Shown here: piece by piece, positions 73 to 31,043 of the stretch
Layout of the letters: each line of letters begins with the position of its first letter
How positions within the stretch are numbered: the first letter of the stretch is position 1
NCBI GenBank assembly: GCA_913774955.1
Contig: CAJYKV010000015.1
Location: 62,001-126,000, forward strand
DNA: 64,000 nt
DNA from: an uncultured Acidovorax sp.
Lineage (GTDB): Bacteria > Pseudomonadota > Gammaproteobacteria > Burkholderiales > Burkholderiaceae_C
Direction of reading: 5' to 3'
Translations under genes and position numbers: made by a program
The notes under the pieces: generated by a model
Database searches by the model: none
Told to the model about the DNA's origin: nothing
What the model saw: only the letters and a program-made list of their open reading frames with translations

Positions 73-198
73 TGGGATGAGGCCGACGCGGCCGTCGCTG
101 ACGCGGCGGCCGCCTACAGTGGATGACCAGTCGCGGTTCTACAGTGTGCCGCGCCGAGTGTGCAACCTCACAGTCGCGATATAACTGGAAATTCACTC

Positions 199-789
199 AT
201 GAATCAATCATTCACGAAGCGCCTCGGCGCCACGCTGGTGGCCCGGGGCGCTTTCTTCGTTCTGGCGGCCGTCACGGCGATGGGCGTCCAGGCACAGACG
301 GCCGGCACGGCCGACACCCCATCGGTGTACCTGCAGGGCGGCTGGGCGGAGCACAGCACCGATGCGGCCACCCTGGGCGTCACCCTGCCCTGGGGCAACT
401 GGCGCAGCGAACTGCTGGGCCATGAGGTGCGCGGTTACTGGGACATCTACGCCAGCCGCTGGTCGTACGATGGTGTCGCGGGCGGATCCAGCCACGCCAC
501 GCTCGTCGGCGTCACGCCCACCTTCCGCCTGCGGCCCGACAACGGCCGCTCCGCCTTCTTCTGGGAAGGCGGCATCGGCGTCACCTACATGGACAAGCGC
601 TACGAAACGATCCACAAGGAGTTCGGCACGCGCTACAACTTCGCTTCCCACCTGGGCCTGGGCTACAGCTTGGGAGCGCAGCGCCAGCACGAGGTGATGG
701 TGCGTGTGCAGCACCTCTCCAACGGCGGCATCAAGAAGCCGAACCCCGGCGAGAACTTCGTCCAGCTGCGTTACGCCTACCACTTCTGA
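199..789 (+). CDS. pagL: Lipid A 3-O-deacylase, PagL family
   Basis: Outer-membrane beta-barrel esterase that removes the 3-O-linked acyl chain from lipid A. The 196-residue product has a signal peptide (cleavage likely after Ala32, Val-Gln-Ala). It ends in alternating aromatic/hydrophobic residues with a terminal Phe, typical of barrel proteins recognised by BamA. Near the C terminus His172-Leu-Ser174 with Asn175 and Glu185 match the His-Ser-Glu catalytic arrangement of PagL. ATG 199 is preferred over the in-frame ATG at 160 because it starts the signal peptide and has GGAA 8 bases upstream. A strong terminator follows. Family assignment is by motif; activity is inferred. Confidence 0.85.
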   Translation: MNQSFTKRLGATLVARGAFFVLAAVTAMGVQAQTAGTADTPSVYLQGGWAEHSTDAATLGVTLPWGNWRSELLGHEVRGYWDIYASRWSYDGVAGGSSHATLVGVTPTFRLRPDNGRSAFFWEGGIGVTYMDKRYETIHKEFGTRYNFASHLGLGYSLGAQRQHEVMVRVQHLSNGGIKKPNPGENFVQLRYAYHF

Positions 790-862: not shown

Positions 863-922
863 CGGGCGTGTTTTCCGCACATTGTGGATAAGTCTGGGGG
901 TATTTCTGGAGCAACTGCGGTG

Positions 923-1110
923 TTATCCACAGGAGCGGCCGGTCGGCCGAAGTTGTTATCGGTCGGCGCGCGGGTTGACCCCGATCTGCACCACAGGGTT
1001 GGGCCGCACCCAAGTCCGCGCAGCCATTGGACAAAAGACGCTTGTCCACAGAAGGGGCCGGTCCTTACTACTATTCCTATGGTTTTATAAAAGCTTTCAA
1101 GTAATAACAA
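923..1110 (+). repeat. Origin unwinding unit A (DnaA boxes, GC block, DnaA-trios, AT-rich)
   Basis: In order: DnaA box 923-931, the motif CCACAGGGTTGG at 991-1002, DnaA box 1042-1050, a 14-base GC-rich spacer (1051-1064), then TTA CTA CTA TTC CTA from 1065, and an AT-rich run from 1081. CTA on this strand corresponds to the 3'-GAT-5' DnaA-trio. Spacing is the same as in unit B, about 600 bp downstream. Confidence 0.65.
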
Positions 1111-1522
1111 GAACATCCGTCCGGGGCACCGAAAACGGTCCGCGGGCAGGTTTTTGCGCCGATCCGGCCGCGGGGCGGTGGCTGCCGCCGGACATGCGTG
1201 CGTGGTGCACGGCCGGCGGGGCTGGCAGCGGCGCTTGGTTTTGCCGACTGGCGGTTGCCAGGGGTCTTGGGAAGGGATTTCGGGCACCAGTGCCCGCTTC
1301 CGGCGCCATGGGCCGGTCGCCAGGGGTGCGTTCCGCGGGGCCGGCCCGCAGCGAGCGCCGTTGGAAGGCCGCCAGCCAGGGTTCCACCAGCCCGTTTCGG
1401 CGGATACATGCGCCCCGTATCCGTCCCCAAGCCCCATGGACCCGTGGATTTCGCCCTGGCAGGCTGCTCGACAGGCGCTCAGGAAGAACAACCCTGGGGA
1501 CATCTTTCGCACAAGCGCCCAG

Positions 1523-1710
1523 TTGTCCACACGACAAGGGCGGTGCGCAGATTTGTCCCCGCCGCGCGGACAGCGGCAGCCGGGTGCCACCCACAGGGTT
1601 GGTCTGCGTCAAAAACCGTTGCCACACAACGGAAATTTGCAGTTATCCACAGAACGGGCCGGTCCTTACTACTACGACTATGTTTTTATAAAAACTACAA
1701 AGAAGAAGAC
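1523..1710 (+). repeat. Origin unwinding unit B (imperfect direct repeat of unit A)
   Basis: DnaA box 1523-1531, CCACAGGGTTGG at 1591-1602, perfect DnaA box 1643-1651, a 14-base GC spacer, then TTA CTA CTA CGA CTA from 1666 and an AT-rich run from 1681. First box to motif is 68 bp in both units and motif to second box is 51 or 52 bp. Sequence between the landmarks has diverged, so the architecture looks preserved rather than freshly copied. Confidence 0.65.
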
Positions 1711-1977
1711 AGGGACAACCAGGGCGCGGAAATCAGGGGCCGTTCAACGTGCGGAAGGAGCGTGAGATCGACGCAGGAGAAGCCAGACAGGTACGGACGC
1801 ACGGCGCAGGCATTGCACAGGCCCCTGGAAGGGCCAGGAAGGCCGTTTGGCGGGTTTCACGTAGGGGGTGGGCACCCTGCCGCTGAAAAACGCTTCGCGG
1901 GCGTCTGGTGGGGTGTGGGAAGGTCGCCTGCGATGATCGCGGGGCGCATGGTGCCGCTCCAAGGGTGCGGCAGCGGC

Positions 1978-4900
1978 TCAGCGGGCGGTGATCCGGGCGC
2001 GCAGGAAGTCTTCGAGGGCCGTCTCGGGCAGCGGGCGGCTGAAGAAATAGCCCTGGTAGGCACGGCAGCCGGCATGTTCGAGCCAGCCGCGCTGTTCGAC
2101 GGTTTCGACGCCCTCGGCGATCACGTCCAGGCCCAGGCTGCGCGAGAGCGCGATGATCGTGTCCACGATGGCCGCGTCGTTCGGATCGGCCAGCAGGTCG
2201 CGCACGAAGCTCTGGTCGATCTTGAGCTGGTCCAGCGGCATGCGCTTGAGGTAGCTCAGCGACGAGTAGCCCGTGCCGAAATCGTCCAGCGAGAAACCGA
2301 CGCCATGGGCGCGCAGGGCCGACATGGTGGCGATCGTGGTTTCCATGTCCTCGACGAAGAGGCTTTCCGTCAGTTCCAGCTTCAGCCGGTTGGCCGGCGC
2401 GCCCGTGGACGTGATGGCGCGCACCACGTCCTCCACGAACGCCTCGTGGTGGAACTGGCGCGAGCTCACGTTCACCGCCATGCTGAGGTGGGCCCGCTGG
2501 GGGATGCCTTTCCAGCGGGCGAGCTGCGTGCAGGCGGTGTGCAGCACCCAGCGGCCCAGCGGCAGCACCAGGCCCGTTTCCTCCGCCAGCGGAATGAATT
2601 CGCCGGGCGAGACCATGCCGCGGTGCGGATGCGGCCAGCGCACGAGCGCCTCCACGCCGGTCACGCAGCCGCGGTGGTCCACCTGGGGCTGGTAGTGCAG
2701 CATGAACTGGTCGCGCGCCAGCGCGGCGCGCAGGTCGTTCTCGAGTTCGGCGCGGGCCGTCACCACCGCCTGCATGCCCGGGTCGAAGAAGCGCAGCGTG
2801 TTGCGGCCGGCGGTCTTGGCCTGGTACATGGCGAGGTCGGCCTGCTTGAGCAGTTCGCCCACGGTGGAGGTGCGTCCGTCGCCGAACGGCGCCACCCCGA
2901 TGCTGGGCGTGCTGCGGTAGTGGTAGCCCTGCAGCACGTAGGGCGTGGCCAGCACCGACAGGATCTTCTCCCCCACGGTGCGCGCGCTCATGGCGAGCTC
3001 GTCGGCATGGGCGCTCAAGCCCTCCACCATCACCACGAACTCGTCGCCGCCCAGGCGGGCGACGGTGTCCACCGAGCGTACGCAGGTGTTCAGGCGTGCC
3101 GCCACCTGCTGCAGCAGCACGTCGCCCTGGTCGTGGCCCAGGGTGTCGTTCAGGGTTTTGAAGTTGTCCAGGTCGATGAAGAGCAGCGCCCCGCCCTGGC
3201 GGCGGCGGTGCGCCGTGGCCAGGGCCTGGCGCATGCGGTCCATCAGCAGCATCCGGTTGGGCAGGCCGGTGAGCGAATCGTAGAACGCCAGGCGCTGGAT
3301 CTCCCGCTCGGTCGCCTTGCGCTGGCCGATGTCGGTGTTGATCGCCAGGATCGCGTCGGGCTGGCCCTGCTCGCCCGGGATCAGCGTCCAGCGGCCCTCC
3401 ACGTCCAGGCGGCGGCCGTCGCGGTGGAACTGCACGATCTCGCCGGACCATTCGCCGTGCTCGCGCGTGGTCTGGGTGGCGCGCAGGAATTCCTGCATGT
3501 CCTGGTAGAGCAGCGTGGCGATGGACTGGCCGGTCGCCTCTTCGCGCGTCCATCCGTACAGGCGCTCGGCGCCTTCGTTCCAGAACGTGATGCGGTGGTC
3601 CAGGTCGCGCACGATGATCGCGTCGCGCGCCTTGTCGAGCAGCGAGGCCTGCCGGCGGATGTGCGCGTCCGAGGCCTGGCGCGCCATCTCGGCGGCGGCC
3701 CGGGCCGCGAAGATGCGCAGCGTGGAAATCACCATGCCCGGCTGCTGCATCGGCTCGCGGAACACCACGAACACGAAGCCGATGGCGTGTCCCTCGGCAT
3801 CGCGCAGCTGCAGGCCGACGTAGGCCTGCGCGCCCATGCGCGCGGCGGGCGAATCGGGGTAGAGCTCCGAGATGCCGTGCGGTATCACGCACTCGGCCTC
3901 GTTCACGAGGCGCAGGCTCGGCGTGCCTTCCAGCGCGTACTCGGCATTGGGCTGCGCGACGCCCTCTTCCACGCGCGACAGCGTCACCGCGCGCGGCAAC
4001 TGGCCGCCCGGCTGCGGCAGCAGGCGCGTCACGCAACCCGCCTGCGCACCCAGCGCGTCGCACATGTGGCTGGCGAGCTGCTTGAAGAACTGCGTGCCGG
4101 TGCTGGCCGACACCGCGGCCGCCGCCTTGAGCACCACCGCCTGCAGGCGCTGCTGGTCTTGGCGCGTGCGCAGGCTGCCCAGCCCGAAGGCGATGTCGTT
4201 GGCGAGCTGCTGCAGCAGCTCGGTTTCCTCGGCGCCGGTCTCCAGCACATCCTCGGGATAGAGCGTGAGCAGCCCGAACACCTGTTCCGCATCGCGCAGC
4301 GGCAGGCTGATGACGGCGGGCAGGCCCTGCTCCATGAGCGGCTGCGCCCAGAGGTCCGCGTCCGGGGCCTTGGCCAGATCGTGCACGATGACCGGGCGGC
4401 CGGTGCGCAATGCTTCGCCAGAGGGGCCGGGGCTGTGCGGTGTCCAGGGAGCGTCCTGCCGGCCATGGGGGCGCAGGGCCTCCACGGCCACGGTCGTCAG
4501 GCCGGCCCATGCCACCGGCTCGATGCTGCGGCGCTCCGTGCCCCCGACGGTCCAGCTGCGCACCATGCCCACCCAGGCACTGCGGTAGCCGCCGACCTCG
4601 CGCGCGATGCGGCACACCTCCGAGAGCAGGGCCGATTCGCTGGTGGCGCGCACCAGCGCCTCGTTGCAGGCGCTCAGCAGCCGCTGCACCGTGCCGACGC
4701 GCGCCAGCTCGCGCTCCACGCGCATGCGCTGCGTCACGTCGGTGGCGAGCACCTGCCGCGCGGACCGTCCGGCAAAAGTGGTGTCGCCCGCGTAGACCTC
4801 CATGTCGATCAGCGTGCCGTCCTTGCGGCAGTGGCGGCGGTGCACGCCGTCGCGCCGCTCCCCGGGCGGCAGGGCGCGCGCTTCCACTTCCCGCTGCGCG

Positions 4901-6483
4901 CGTTCCTGCGGGGGCCAGAGCTGCGCGGTCGTCATGCCCAGCAGTTCGGCTTCCGTGTAGCCGTAGTGGCGCACCATGGCGCGGTTCACCGCGAGGATGC
5001 GCAGGCTGCCGCGTTCATAGACCCACATCGGCTGCGGATGGGCATCGAAGAGCGAGCGGTATTGCTGCTCCGACGCGCTCAGCTGCGCGGCGTAGCTGCG
5101 CAGCTGCAGCACGGCGCCCAGCGATTCGGCCAGGATCTGCACGTAGGCCACATGGCGCTGCGTGAACGTGAACAGCGGATCGGCGTTCACCTTCAGCATG
5201 CCCAGCATGTTCTCGCCGGCACGCAGCGGCGCCGCGATGAACGACAGCGCTCCGTGCCGGCCTCCGTCGGTGGCCAGCAGCGCCTGCGGCTGCGCGCCGT
5301 CGCTGTGCAGCACGGTCTGCCCCGCGCCCAGCTGCTCCCAGAGCGGGTAGCCGAGCACGGGCCGCGATTCGTCCAGGGGTTCGGAGCGGCGGCCGGTGCC
5401 GGCGCGCACGCGCAGGCGTTCGCCCTCGCGCAGCACCACCATGGCGCCGTGGCCGTCCGCGAGGTCCATGGCGGTGCGGGCCGCCAATTGCAGCACTTCG
5501 TCCAGCGGCAGCTCGGGGGCGCTCATGCGCTGCTGCACGCGCACCAGCTCGGCATGGGCGCTCGCGTCCCGCTGCGCCTGCAGGGCACTCTGCTTCTGGC
5601 CGCTGATGTCGGTCATGCCGCCCACCATGCGCACCGCCGTGCCCTCGTCGTCGCGGATCACGAAGCCGCGGTCGCGTACCCAGGCATAGGTGCCGTCCTG
5701 GCGGCGGAAGCGGTATTCGTCGGTCCAGTGCCGGGACGTTCCCTCGATGGTCGCATGGATGCCCTCGAGCACGTGGTCGCTGTCGTCCGGATGCAGTCGC
5801 TGCGTCCAGGAGGTGCTGTCGTGCGGCAGCGTGTGCAGCGGCACGCCGAACAGGGTTTCCATGCCCTCGTTCCACCACATCGAATCATCGGTGAGGTTCC
5901 AGTCCCAGATCGCGTCGGCCGTGGCGCGCGCCACGAGGTGGAAGCGTTCCTCGGACAGCGCGCGCTCCTGCGCGCGCCGCACCCAGCCCCGCCGCTGCCG
6001 CCGCAGCTCCAGCAGCGCCATCGTCTGCTCGGCGATGGCCGCGAGCGCCTCCTGCCGCGCGGCATCCAGCGTGCGGACCGCCGTGTCCATGGCCACCACG
6101 GCGCCCAGCACCAGCCCATCGGCGTTGCGGATCGGCATGCAGGCGCACATGCGGATGCGGGGCGGCCCCAGCACCAGGGGATGGCTGCACAGCGTGGCAT
6201 GGGCGCGGGCGTCTTCGACCTGCACGAGCTGCCCGCCCTGCGCGAGCGTGCAGAGCGTGTGGGCGCCGGCCAGTTTCTGCAGCATGTCGACGGCCATGCC
6301 CGTGCTCGCCTTGAACCACTCGCGGTCCGCGTCCACGAAGCCGATCACGGCCAGGGGCGCATCGCACAGGTGCGCAGCGAGGCGGGCCAGCTGGTCGAAG
6401 GTGTCCTCGGTCGGAGTGTCGAGGATGGCGCAGGCGTGCAGCGCATCCAGGCGCCGGCCGGGAGCGTCCGTGCGGGCCCCCAT
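1978..6483 (-). CDS. Multi-sensor GGDEF-EAL protein (cyclic di-GMP turnover)
   Basis: A 1501-residue cytoplasmic signalling protein without obvious membrane segments. Approximate domain order: GAF (10-165), PAS (175-310), GAF (330-460), PAS (475-590), GAF (600-770), GAF (785-930), PAS (945-1065), GGDEF (1070-1235), EAL (1245-1495). The cyclase signature is intact (Gly-Gly-Asp-Glu-Phe near 1146). The phosphodiesterase part keeps Glu-Ala-Leu near 1278 plus the downstream DDFGTG and EGVE motifs, so both activities are possible. ATG 6483 is used because the longer frame would need a TTG start at 6504. No neighbour shares its strand closely, so it is probably monocistronic. Sensed ligands are unknown. 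Confidence 0.9.
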   Translation of the reverse strand: MGARTDAPGRRLDALHACAILDTPTEDTFDQLARLAAHLCDAPLAVIGFVDADREWFKASTGMAVDMLQKLAGAHTLCTLAQGGQLVQVEDARAHATLCSHPLVLGPPRIRMCACMPIRNADGLVLGAVVAMDTAVRTLDAARQEALAAIAEQTMALLELRRQRRGWVRRAQERALSEERFHLVARATADAIWDWNLTDDSMWWNEGMETLFGVPLHTLPHDSTSWTQRLHPDDSDHVLEGIHATIEGTSRHWTDEYRFRRQDGTYAWVRDRGFVIRDDEGTAVRMVGGMTDISGQKQSALQAQRDASAHAELVRVQQRMSAPELPLDEVLQLAARTAMDLADGHGAMVVLREGERLRVRAGTGRRSEPLDESRPVLGYPLWEQLGAGQTVLHSDGAQPQALLATDGGRHGALSFIAAPLRAGENMLGMLKVNADPLFTFTQRHVAYVQILAESLGAVLQLRSYAAQLSASEQQYRSLFDAHPQPMWVYERGSLRILAVNRAMVRHYGYTEAELLGMTTAQLWPPQERAQREVEARALPPGERRDGVHRRHCRKDGTLIDMEVYAGDTTFAGRSARQVLATDVTQRMRVERELARVGTVQRLLSACNEALVRATSESALLSEVCRIAREVGGYRSAWVGMVRSWTVGGTERRSIEPVAWAGLTTVAVEALRPHGRQDAPWTPHSPGPSGEALRTGRPVIVHDLAKAPDADLWAQPLMEQGLPAVISLPLRDAEQVFGLLTLYPEDVLETGAEETELLQQLANDIAFGLGSLRTRQDQQRLQAVVLKAAAAVSASTGTQFFKQLASHMCDALGAQAGCVTRLLPQPGGQLPRAVTLSRVEEGVAQPNAEYALEGTPSLRLVNEAECVIPHGISELYPDSPAARMGAQAYVGLQLRDAEGHAIGFVFVVFREPMQQPGMVISTLRIFAARAAAEMARQASDAHIRRQASLLDKARDAIIVRDLDHRITFWNEGAERLYGWTREEATGQSIATLLYQDMQEFLRATQTTREHGEWSGEIVQFHRDGRRLDVEGRWTLIPGEQGQPDAILAINTDIGQRKATEREIQRLAFYDSLTGLPNRMLLMDRMRQALATAHRRRQGGALLFIDLDNFKTLNDTLGHDQGDVLLQQVAARLNTCVRSVDTVARLGGDEFVVMVEGLSAHADELAMSARTVGEKILSVLATPYVLQGYHYRSTPSIGVAPFGDGRTSTVGELLKQADLAMYQAKTAGRNTLRFFDPGMQAVVTARAELENDLRAALARDQFMLHYQPQVDHRGCVTGVEALVRWPHPHRGMVSPGEFIPLAEETGLVLPLGRWVLHTACTQLARWKGIPQRAHLSMAVNVSSRQFHHEAFVEDVVRAITSTGAPANRLKLELTESLFVEDMETTIATMSALRAHGVGFSLDDFGTGYSSLSYLKRMPLDQLKIDQSFVRDLLADPNDAAIVDTIIALSRSLGLDVIAEGVETVEQRGWLEHAGCRAYQGYFFSRPLPETALEDFLRARITAR

Positions 6484-6737
6484 GGTCAGCGTTCCAGGCG
6501 GCAAGTGAAAGCCCTGCGCTCAGGAACGTGCGACGTCGGAGGCGGGGGCGGCTGCACCTGCATGGCGTGGGCGTGGTGATGGTTGGACGGGGACTGGCAC
6601 GGCCGGAGCCGCCCGCTGTCGGAAGCGGGTGATCCAGGGACTGCGTGTTTCCGAATGTACACCCTGGCCGCCCGGTACGGACGTTACTGCAGGATGGAAT
6701 CCGTGCAGAAAACAACAGCCCGGCGGGCGAAACCGGC

Positions 6738-29544: not shown

Positions 29545-30966
29545 TCAGCCCTTGAGCGTCTGTTCCAGCACGTGCAGCTGCTGGTTCAGTTCGGTGAGCT
29601 GCTGGCGCTCGGCCGCGATCTTTCGCACCGCGTGCAGCACCGTCGTGTGGTCGCGCCCGCCGAACAGCTCGCCGATCTCGGGCAGGCTCTTCTGCGTGAG
29701 TTCCTTGGCGAGGTACATGGCGATCTGGCGCGGCCGGGCGATCGAGGCGGGGCGCTTCTTGCTGTACATGTCGGCCACCTTGATCTTGTAGTAGTCGGCG
29801 ACGGTCTTCTGGATGTTCTCCACGCTGATCTGCCGGTTCTGGATCGACAGCAGATCGCGCAGCGCCTCGCGGGCGAGCTGGATGGAGACTTCCTTCTGAT
29901 TGAAGCGCGAATAGGCCAGGATCTTGCGCAGCGCGCCTTCGAGCTCGCGCACGTTGGAGCGCACGTTCTTGGCGACGAAGAAGGCGACCTCCTCGGGCAT
30001 CTCGGCGCTCTCGGCGCGGGCCTTGTTGATCAGGATGGCCACGCGCATCTCGAGCTCGGGCGGCTCGATGGTGACGGTGAGGCCGGAGTCGAAGCGCGAG
30101 ACGAGCCGCTCGTGGATGTTCGCGAGGCCCTTCGGGTACGTGTCCGAGGTCATCACGATGTGGCTCTTCTTGGCCAGCAGCGCCTCGAAGGCGTTGAAGA
30201 ACTCCTCCTGCGTGCGGTCCTTGTTCGCGAAGAACTGCACATCGTCGATCAGCAGCAGATCGAGCGAGTGGTAGTGCGCCTTGAATTCGTCGAAGGTGCG
30301 TCGCTGGTAGGCCTTAACCACATCCGAGACGAACTGCTCGGCATGGATGTAGAGAACTTTCGCGTCGGGCTTGTCCTGCAGCAGGCGGTTGCCCACCGCA
30401 TGCACCAGGTGGGTCTTGCCCAGGCCCACGCCGCCGTAGATGAAGAGTGGGTTGTAGAGGTGCCCGGGCGAGCCCGCGACGTGCATCGCGGCGGAGCGCG
30501 CCATGCGGTTGGCCGTACCTTCCACCAGGGTCTCGAACGTGAGCGCCGGGTTGAGGCGCGAGCGGAACGGCACGGCCGTGGGCTCGTCCGACGGGGTGGC
30601 GCCGATGGGGGTTTCGGACGGGGCGGCCGGCTGGGGTGCAGCGGGACGGACCACCGTGCGGGCCACGGTTTCACGCTGAGCGAGCGCTAACTCCAGCGTG
30701 ACCGGCTGGCCGTACAGGCCCTCCAGCAGGGCGGTGATGCGGCCCGCGTACTGGGCGCGGATCCAGTCGAGCTTGAAGCGGTTGGCCACCAGCAGGGTGA
30801 CCTTGGAGAAATCGGGGGCGACCTGGGCGACGAGCGGCTTGATCCAGGTGTTGAACTGCTGCTCGGGCAGGTCTTGTGCGAGCTGTTCTGCGCAGGCCTG
30901 CCAGAGCCCCTGGCCGGGATCGGCGCCGGTGTCGAGGTCGGGGCTGCGGGAGGGTTCCTCGGTCAT
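29545..30966 (-). CDS. dnaA: Chromosomal replication initiator DnaA
   Basis: 473-residue AAA+ initiator that binds DnaA boxes and melts the origin. It has an N-terminal DnaB/partner-binding domain, a Pro/Thr-rich linker (about 95-130), Walker A (GGVGLGKTH), Walker B (LLIDDVQF), sensor motifs, and a C-terminal helix-turn-helix with the signature '[11 protein letters not shown]'. The promoter overlaps a perfect DnaA box and a one-mismatch box lies in the 5' leader. Gene polarity flips just upstream, at rpmH. Confidence 0.98.
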
Positions 30967-31014
30967 GAAGGCGGTTTTGTTGTTGTGGATAGGAGGAACG
31001 GATCAGGGCCTGGG

Positions 31015-31043
31015 ATTGTAGCTTTTCAAGGGGTTATCCACAA
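31015..31043 (-). promoter_or_regulatory. dnaA promoter overlapping a DnaA box
   Basis: Minus strand: TTGTGG (-35, 31043-31038), a 17-base spacer and TACAAT (-10, 31020-31015). The -35 shares its bases with the perfect DnaA box 31034-31042, so DnaA binding should block RNA polymerase. Confidence 0.65.

Follow-up and report, generated by a model that had tools for sequence, protein, structure and literature searches.

Two similar groups of DnaA boxes, each followed by DnaA-trios and an AT-rich run, lie side by side in the chromosome of an uncultured Acidovorax, about 28 kb from dnaA. By the textbook rule, a bacterial chromosome has a single origin. We were therefore interested in whether this locus is the replication origin, and whether it holds one origin or two. 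The stretch analysed (the window; 64,000 nucleotides) corresponds to bases 62001-126000 of a 442-kb contig, and its features are collected in Table 1.

Two complete copies of a probable origin unit in the window

An earlier note on this DNA described two modules with a shared order of elements and with spacings of 68/68 and 51/52, and these were exact in the sequence (boxes at 923, 1042, 1523 and 1643; CCACAGGGTTGG at 991 and 1591). The duplication that it put at about 190 bp is real, but the repeat is larger, about 230 bp, and extends further left. Two unwinding modules are present as claimed, but the doubling goes beyond the unwinding part and takes in the whole origin unit. In copies from related genomes, the unit of about 230 bp runs from a reverse DnaA box through 40 bp, a forward box, a weak box-like site, CCACAGGGTTG and CAAGT to a core box, which follows the first forward box at a distance of 118-120 bp and is itself followed by 14 bp, the DnaA-trios and the AT-rich run. 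In the window, the last box of each unit is followed by 14 bases, then TTACTACTA, then the AT-rich run. At up to one mismatch, unit 1 has three boxes and unit 2 has two. No supported gene call was found between the two units.

Table 1. Features of the locus in window coordinates; own-unit matches of profile R1 are by construction, since this genome supplied a training unit.
Feature	Position	Strand	Basis or remark
pagL-like gene (lipid A deacylase family), left neighbour	160..789	+	Pfam PagL, E 1e-32; relatives adjoin unit in other genomes
Origin unit 1, copy-1 type	883..1113	+	Profile R1 match C15:62883-63113, E 4.4e-47
Reverse DnaA box, unit 1 (TTATCCACA on - strand; reads TGTGGATAA forward)	883..891	-	Degenerate at equivalent place in unit 2
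DnaA box, unit 1 (TTATCCACA)	923..931	+	Box search
CCACAGGGTTGG element, unit 1	991..1002	+	Sequence comparison of copies
Core DnaA box, unit 1 (TTGTCCACA)	1042..1050	+	TT[AG]TCCACA exact in 16/16 copy-1 sequences
14-bp spacer, unit 1	1051..1064	+	Sequence
DnaA-trios, unit 1	1065..1081	+ (lower strand read)	TTA CTA CTA TTC CTA
AT-rich run, unit 1; presumed opening site	1082..1112	+	Sequence
Origin unit 2, copy-2 type	1485..1715	+	Profile R1 match C15:63485-63715, E 1.8e-42
DnaA box, unit 2 (TTGTCCACA)	1523..1531	+	Box search
CCACAGGGTTGG element, unit 2	1591..1602	+	Sequence comparison of copies
Core DnaA box, unit 2 (TTATCCACA)	1643..1651	+	Exact in 17/17 copy-2 sequences
14-bp spacer, unit 2	1652..1665	+	Sequence
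DnaA-trios, unit 2	1666..1682	+	TTA CTA CTA
AT-rich run, unit 2	1683..1713	+	Sequence
PAS/GAF/GGDEF/EAL gene, right neighbour	1978..6504	-	Pfam
dnaA, about 28 kb right of unit 2	29545..30966	-	Pfam and whole-genome search

This anatomy was compared with the basal unwinding system (BUS), in which DnaA bound to the trio-proximal box engages the trios of a single strand and opens the duplex, so that helicase can be loaded (PMC8287927, PMC6669920). Under the search rule of PMC8287927, a DnaA box must have three or more 3'-NAN-5' trios no further than 16 bp away; both units conform to it, at a distance of 14 bp. The GC content of the spacer was not taken as defining, because a word search of PMC6669920 gave no 'GC-rich'.

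A 32-base pattern drawn from both sites (box, spacer letters and trios) occurred, at up to three mismatches, at only these two places in the 4.78-Mb genome, and its reversed control nowhere. With a free spacer and up to two mismatches, the pattern gave two matches in the own genome and at least one in 93 of 299 family genomes, the reversed control being 0 in every row. TT[AG]TCCACA was found six times in the 442-kb contig, five times inside the two units and once upstream of dnaA. Plasmid-borne sequence was considered as well and rejected, since a search of 72,556 plasmid records gave no hit at E 1e-5.

Probable position of the origin

The negative-to-positive switch of GC skew that serves as a criterion of a chromosomal oriC was found at the units in 5/5 genomes with 40-, 60- and 90-kb flanks. 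With 40-kb flanks, the step at the units was +0.035 to +0.063, and that at dnaA was negative in 4/4 genomes (-0.006 to -0.042; the dnaA of G112 lies outside the examined stretch). A flip at 31 kb only, named by the earlier note as evidence against its reading, was not seen, the 40-kb-flank step standing at the units with none at 31 kb. With 60- and 90-kb flanks, the unit step exceeded the dnaA step in 4/4, while the latter turned positive in the own genome, G000 (+0.015 at 60 kb, +0.012 at 90 kb), and slightly so in G002 and G020 at 90 kb. The largest 40-kb step fell at -2.8 kb (G000), +8.5 kb (G006), -0.4 kb (G002) and -0.1 kb (G020) relative to the unit, and in G112 the largest local step was about 135-137 kb from the units. 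The largest 60-kb step was 11-23 kb off the units in G000, G006, G002 and G020, and in G000 it was closer to dnaA.

Within the examined stretches, cumulative skew minima lay 0.2 kb (G020), 5 kb (G112), 19 kb (G002) and 27 kb (G006) from the units, compared with 39, about 255, 93 and 102 kb, respectively, from dnaA. On the own contig the minimum was a flat trough at 84.8 kb (window 22.8 kb), with dnaA 7 kb away and the units 21 kb away, which counts against an origin at the units; the cumulative skew of this genome alone would not decide the origin position. Clusters of three to five parS-like sites, defined by the parS consensus with one mismatch allowed, were located 14-36 kb from the nearest unit in 5/5 genomes and at least 54 kb from dnaA. 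Four parS-like sites lie about 26-32 kb to the left of unit 1, outside the window (L116:11278-17327; contig C15 31.3-37.3 kb). Oligomer skew with the motif GGGNAGGG gave too few counts. In G006 both arms measured from the units were about 2.7 Mb, a fit from coarse sampling that a start at dnaA would also allow.

The skew steps, the parS-like clusters and the concentration of boxes thus place oriC most likely at the units, and we hold it very probable that oriC is this locus, between pagL and the EAL/GGDEF gene. An origin at dnaA (31 kb), with some other role for the units, appears extremely improbable and is disfavoured by GC skew. A box at 31034, a one-mismatch box at 30984 and the nearer cumulative minimum of the own contig would speak for it; against them stand the negative 40-kb-flank step at dnaA in all four genomes, which is reversed only with the wider flanks given above, and the parS-like sites and boxes clustered near the units. 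gyrB, dnaN and dnaA occupy 25.6-31.0 kb of the window (Pfam), and a search for a remnant origin between dnaA and dnaN there gave no box at up to one mismatch. The two boxes before dnaA (window 30984-31042) probably serve autoregulation, as in other bacteria.

Distribution of the unit and its distance from dnaA

Related genomes were searched at the DNA level with an 871-bp query. Both copies were present in 16/16 other genomes of the genus, with matches that spanned the units but left the intervening DNA uncovered; those in G001 were partial, and G010 gave one extra 29-base match. A sequence-only profile, R1, was built from 19 units and 235 positions. Profile searching found two units in 12/12 named records, a set that overlaps in part with the G-numbered genomes; A. 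soli and A. kalamii both carry the pair. In the family, R1 matched 280 of 299 genomes, 188 with one unit, 83 with two and nine with three (hand count among the matches listed; seven candidates were scored per genome, and genomes that supplied training units match by construction). In the remaining 19 of the 299, several of them incomplete, R1 found no unit. Since 188 of the 280 matching genomes show a single unit, one unit is generally enough. Two copies in one origin, which the earlier note held to be unusual, recur in this family. An order-wide sample gave R1 matches in 31 of 200 genomes, 26 of them from other families and with weaker scores (best 1.6e-12). In G366, from another family of the order, three weak unit-like matches were seen within 1.6 kb (L182:1515-2480); this locus may be another multi-unit origin.

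Unit-dnaA distances were taken from 30 genomes, of which 28 were measurable (G120 and G292 were left out), using the matches listed only. The nearest listed unit was about 16-300 kb from dnaA in 23 of the 28, and less than 1 kb from the end of dnaA in the other five (G096, G130, G138, G198 and G213). In G268, dnaA is about 300 kb away. A location away from dnaA, as the earlier note had it, was therefore borne out in the window, but it is common in the family, not unusual. The origin of B. subtilis lies between dnaA and dnaN. In 3/3 genomes inspected at that interval, units were found there (one in G138, two each in G198 and G213); because these match the B. subtilis position, the dnaA-dnaN interval may be the older place of the unit. 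In G198 the units are divergent and back to back between the two genes (L206:2198-2402 on the - strand; 2478-2674 on the + strand).

Separate inheritance of the two copies

A tree was made from 91 units of 54 genomes or records; matches covering no more than 150 profile positions were excluded, as were duplicate loci for a single place. In 26 genomes or records chosen for having two close units in this order (17 of the genus, four named Acidovorax, and G019, G125, G177, G226 and G300), first and second copies fell on opposite sides of one split (26/26 and 26/26), which had an ultrafast bootstrap of only 71; a FastTree tree of 38 units likewise separated the copies. The separate lineages in 26/26 indicate that the duplication is old and that both copies were kept. 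The pairs in G232, G109, G032, G213 and G198 were mutual nearest relatives (support 83-100), which may reflect separate duplications or conversion between copies. The pairs of G187, G201, G112 and G257 were split in the tree, and G020 had one unit within the copy-1 clade and two outside it.

Some relatives are rearranged. In G020, G112, G181 and G332, the unit behind pagL falls within or beside the copy-1 clade (G112 joins at support 41); in G020 and G112, some 20 bp separate it from the end of the pagL match. A second unit lies 4-9 kb away in all four, and in G020 and G112, the two typed, it is outside the copy-1 clade. Several open reading frames occupy the gap between units in G020. This genome shows three complete units on the same strand and with the same inner spacing, 9 and 20 kb apart (L085:46-276, L085:9247-9476 and L086:9314-9544), and its skew step falls at the unit nearest pagL. 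As to which copy is used, skew in G020 over the 40-50 kb stretch was mixed and confounded by gene direction. The units of G201 are 46 kb apart on opposite strands (L208:937-1159, -; L209:865-1089, +).

Selection on both copies

Mean pairwise identity within the genus was calculated for 16 copy-1 and 17 copy-2 sequences, the incomplete copy 1 of G005 being left out. The core box reached 1.00 in copy 1 and 0.94 in copy 2, and the trios 0.88 and 0.95, compared with 0.45 and 0.55 for the spacer and 0.54 and 0.56 for other positions. The trio start was kept in 16/16 copy-1 and 16/17 copy-2 sequences. The exception was copy 2 of G016 (L012), whose trio run, CTTACTACGACTACTATG, is shifted in phase relative to other copy-2 sequences. 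Conservation in copy 2 fell below that in copy 1 at the reverse box (0.57 vs 0.63), the first box (0.64 vs 0.69) and CCACAGGGTTG (0.63 vs 0.80), and CAAGT was also weaker. Judged from its sequence, the pair of origin units is real, old and under selection, and it occupies the most likely oriC.

Discussion

We consider that the locus is most likely an ancient twin origin. Our main reading, to which we give a probability of roughly 0.7, is that two complete 230-bp units in the same orientation are both under selection and each able to open, with either or both serving in a given round. Origin position, anatomy, duplication age and conservation were computed, while DnaA binding, melting and the competence of both units are what we infer. 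DnaA would bind the outer boxes of each unit; its assembly would then reach the core box, span the 14-bp spacer and capture the trio strand, upon which the AT-rich run would open and the helicase be loaded. Selection would keep both units, each of which could open, and per round either unit or both might serve. Both units are probably able to unwind; that both are in regular use is more doubtful, though possible. If both fired within 0.6 kb, the inner forks would meet at once and one outgoing pair would remain, so that close twins would presumably cost little.

Alternatively, the units could form one bipartite origin in which they must cooperate, for example through DnaA that spans the roughly 0.4 kb between them, and in which one trio run opens through their joint action only. 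Cooperation between box clusters has been described for bipartite origins (PMC4403523), and the units are less than about 1.6 kb apart in same-genus genomes, but trios and an AT-rich run are present in each unit, the units of G020, G112, G181 and G332 are 4-9 kb apart, and the family majority has a single unit, so we regard obligate cooperation as unlikely. Less likely again is that one unit is the origin and the other a DnaA-binding control site of the titration or reactivation type, from which forks are no longer started. The smaller number of strict boxes in copy 2 (two against three at up to one mismatch) and its several weaker outer sites would fit such a site; a pure binding site would not need trios and a core box, and copy 2 keeps these as well as copy 1 does. 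Lineage-specific pairs elsewhere in the family would fit a second unit that is the relic of a recent duplication or move, but a pair that is common to several genera, with both cores conserved, makes this very improbable here.

With the BUS (PMC6669920, PMC8287927), the locus shares a DnaA box, a spacer of up to 16 bp, at least three DnaA-trios and an AT-rich run; in contrast to that system, it is far from dnaA and has two complete sets 600 bp apart, each of them part of a larger array with a fixed length of 230 bp. The bipartite origins of B. subtilis and H. pylori (PMC4403523) likewise have two DnaA-box clusters at one origin. There the clusters are split by dnaA, whereas here dnaA is 28 kb away and no dnaA gene intervenes, trios occur in both clusters, and the halves are copies. 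Gao 2015 lists putative double origins, one of them in Ralstonia pickettii 12D, where the two sites are at hemE and at dnaA (PMC4403523). These cases resemble ours in having two origin-like places near the skew minimum of one chromosome, but they concern single genomes and are often hundreds of kb apart, while ours is a conserved pair of related units. The double-origin criteria of that paper (replication-gene neighbours, a disparity switch and at least three boxes at up to one mismatch each) do not describe the locus as a whole: the switch is present, the neighbours are pagL and the EAL/GGDEF gene, and the boxes number three in unit 1 and two in unit 2. Family units between dnaA and dnaN (G138, G198 and G213) match the same profile; unlike the window pair, which is far from dnaA and has its copies in separate lineages, the pairs of G198 and G213 adjoin dnaA and are mutual nearest relatives. 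Among the matches listed in the PMC literature, with subscription journals and DoriC outside the scope, no paper dealt with an oriC from Acidovorax or the Comamonadaceae, or described a DnaA-trio unit that is duplicated in nature.

For the Acidovorax family, dnaA is a poor landmark of the origin. Two complete units lie side by side across several genera and 4-9 kb apart in some relatives, and in at least five other lineages the units group pairwise on their own, through either new duplication or conversion. A bolder reading, possible but less likely than not, is that in a sizeable bacterial group the chromosome is replicated from complete oriC units, two or in some species three, which are inherited separately, lie between 0.3 and more than 9 kb from each other and would have been maintained as functional start sites since before the genera split. 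Double firing would matter at a spacing of 4-46 kb, which makes the genomes so spaced the informative ones. In Acidovorax-like bacteria with twin units, the use of two origins and the prevention of double firing become directly testable questions, and the twin unit offers a natural setting in which to ask if a bacterium can use more than one start site. If both units do work, this would be a natural multi-origin bacterial chromosome.
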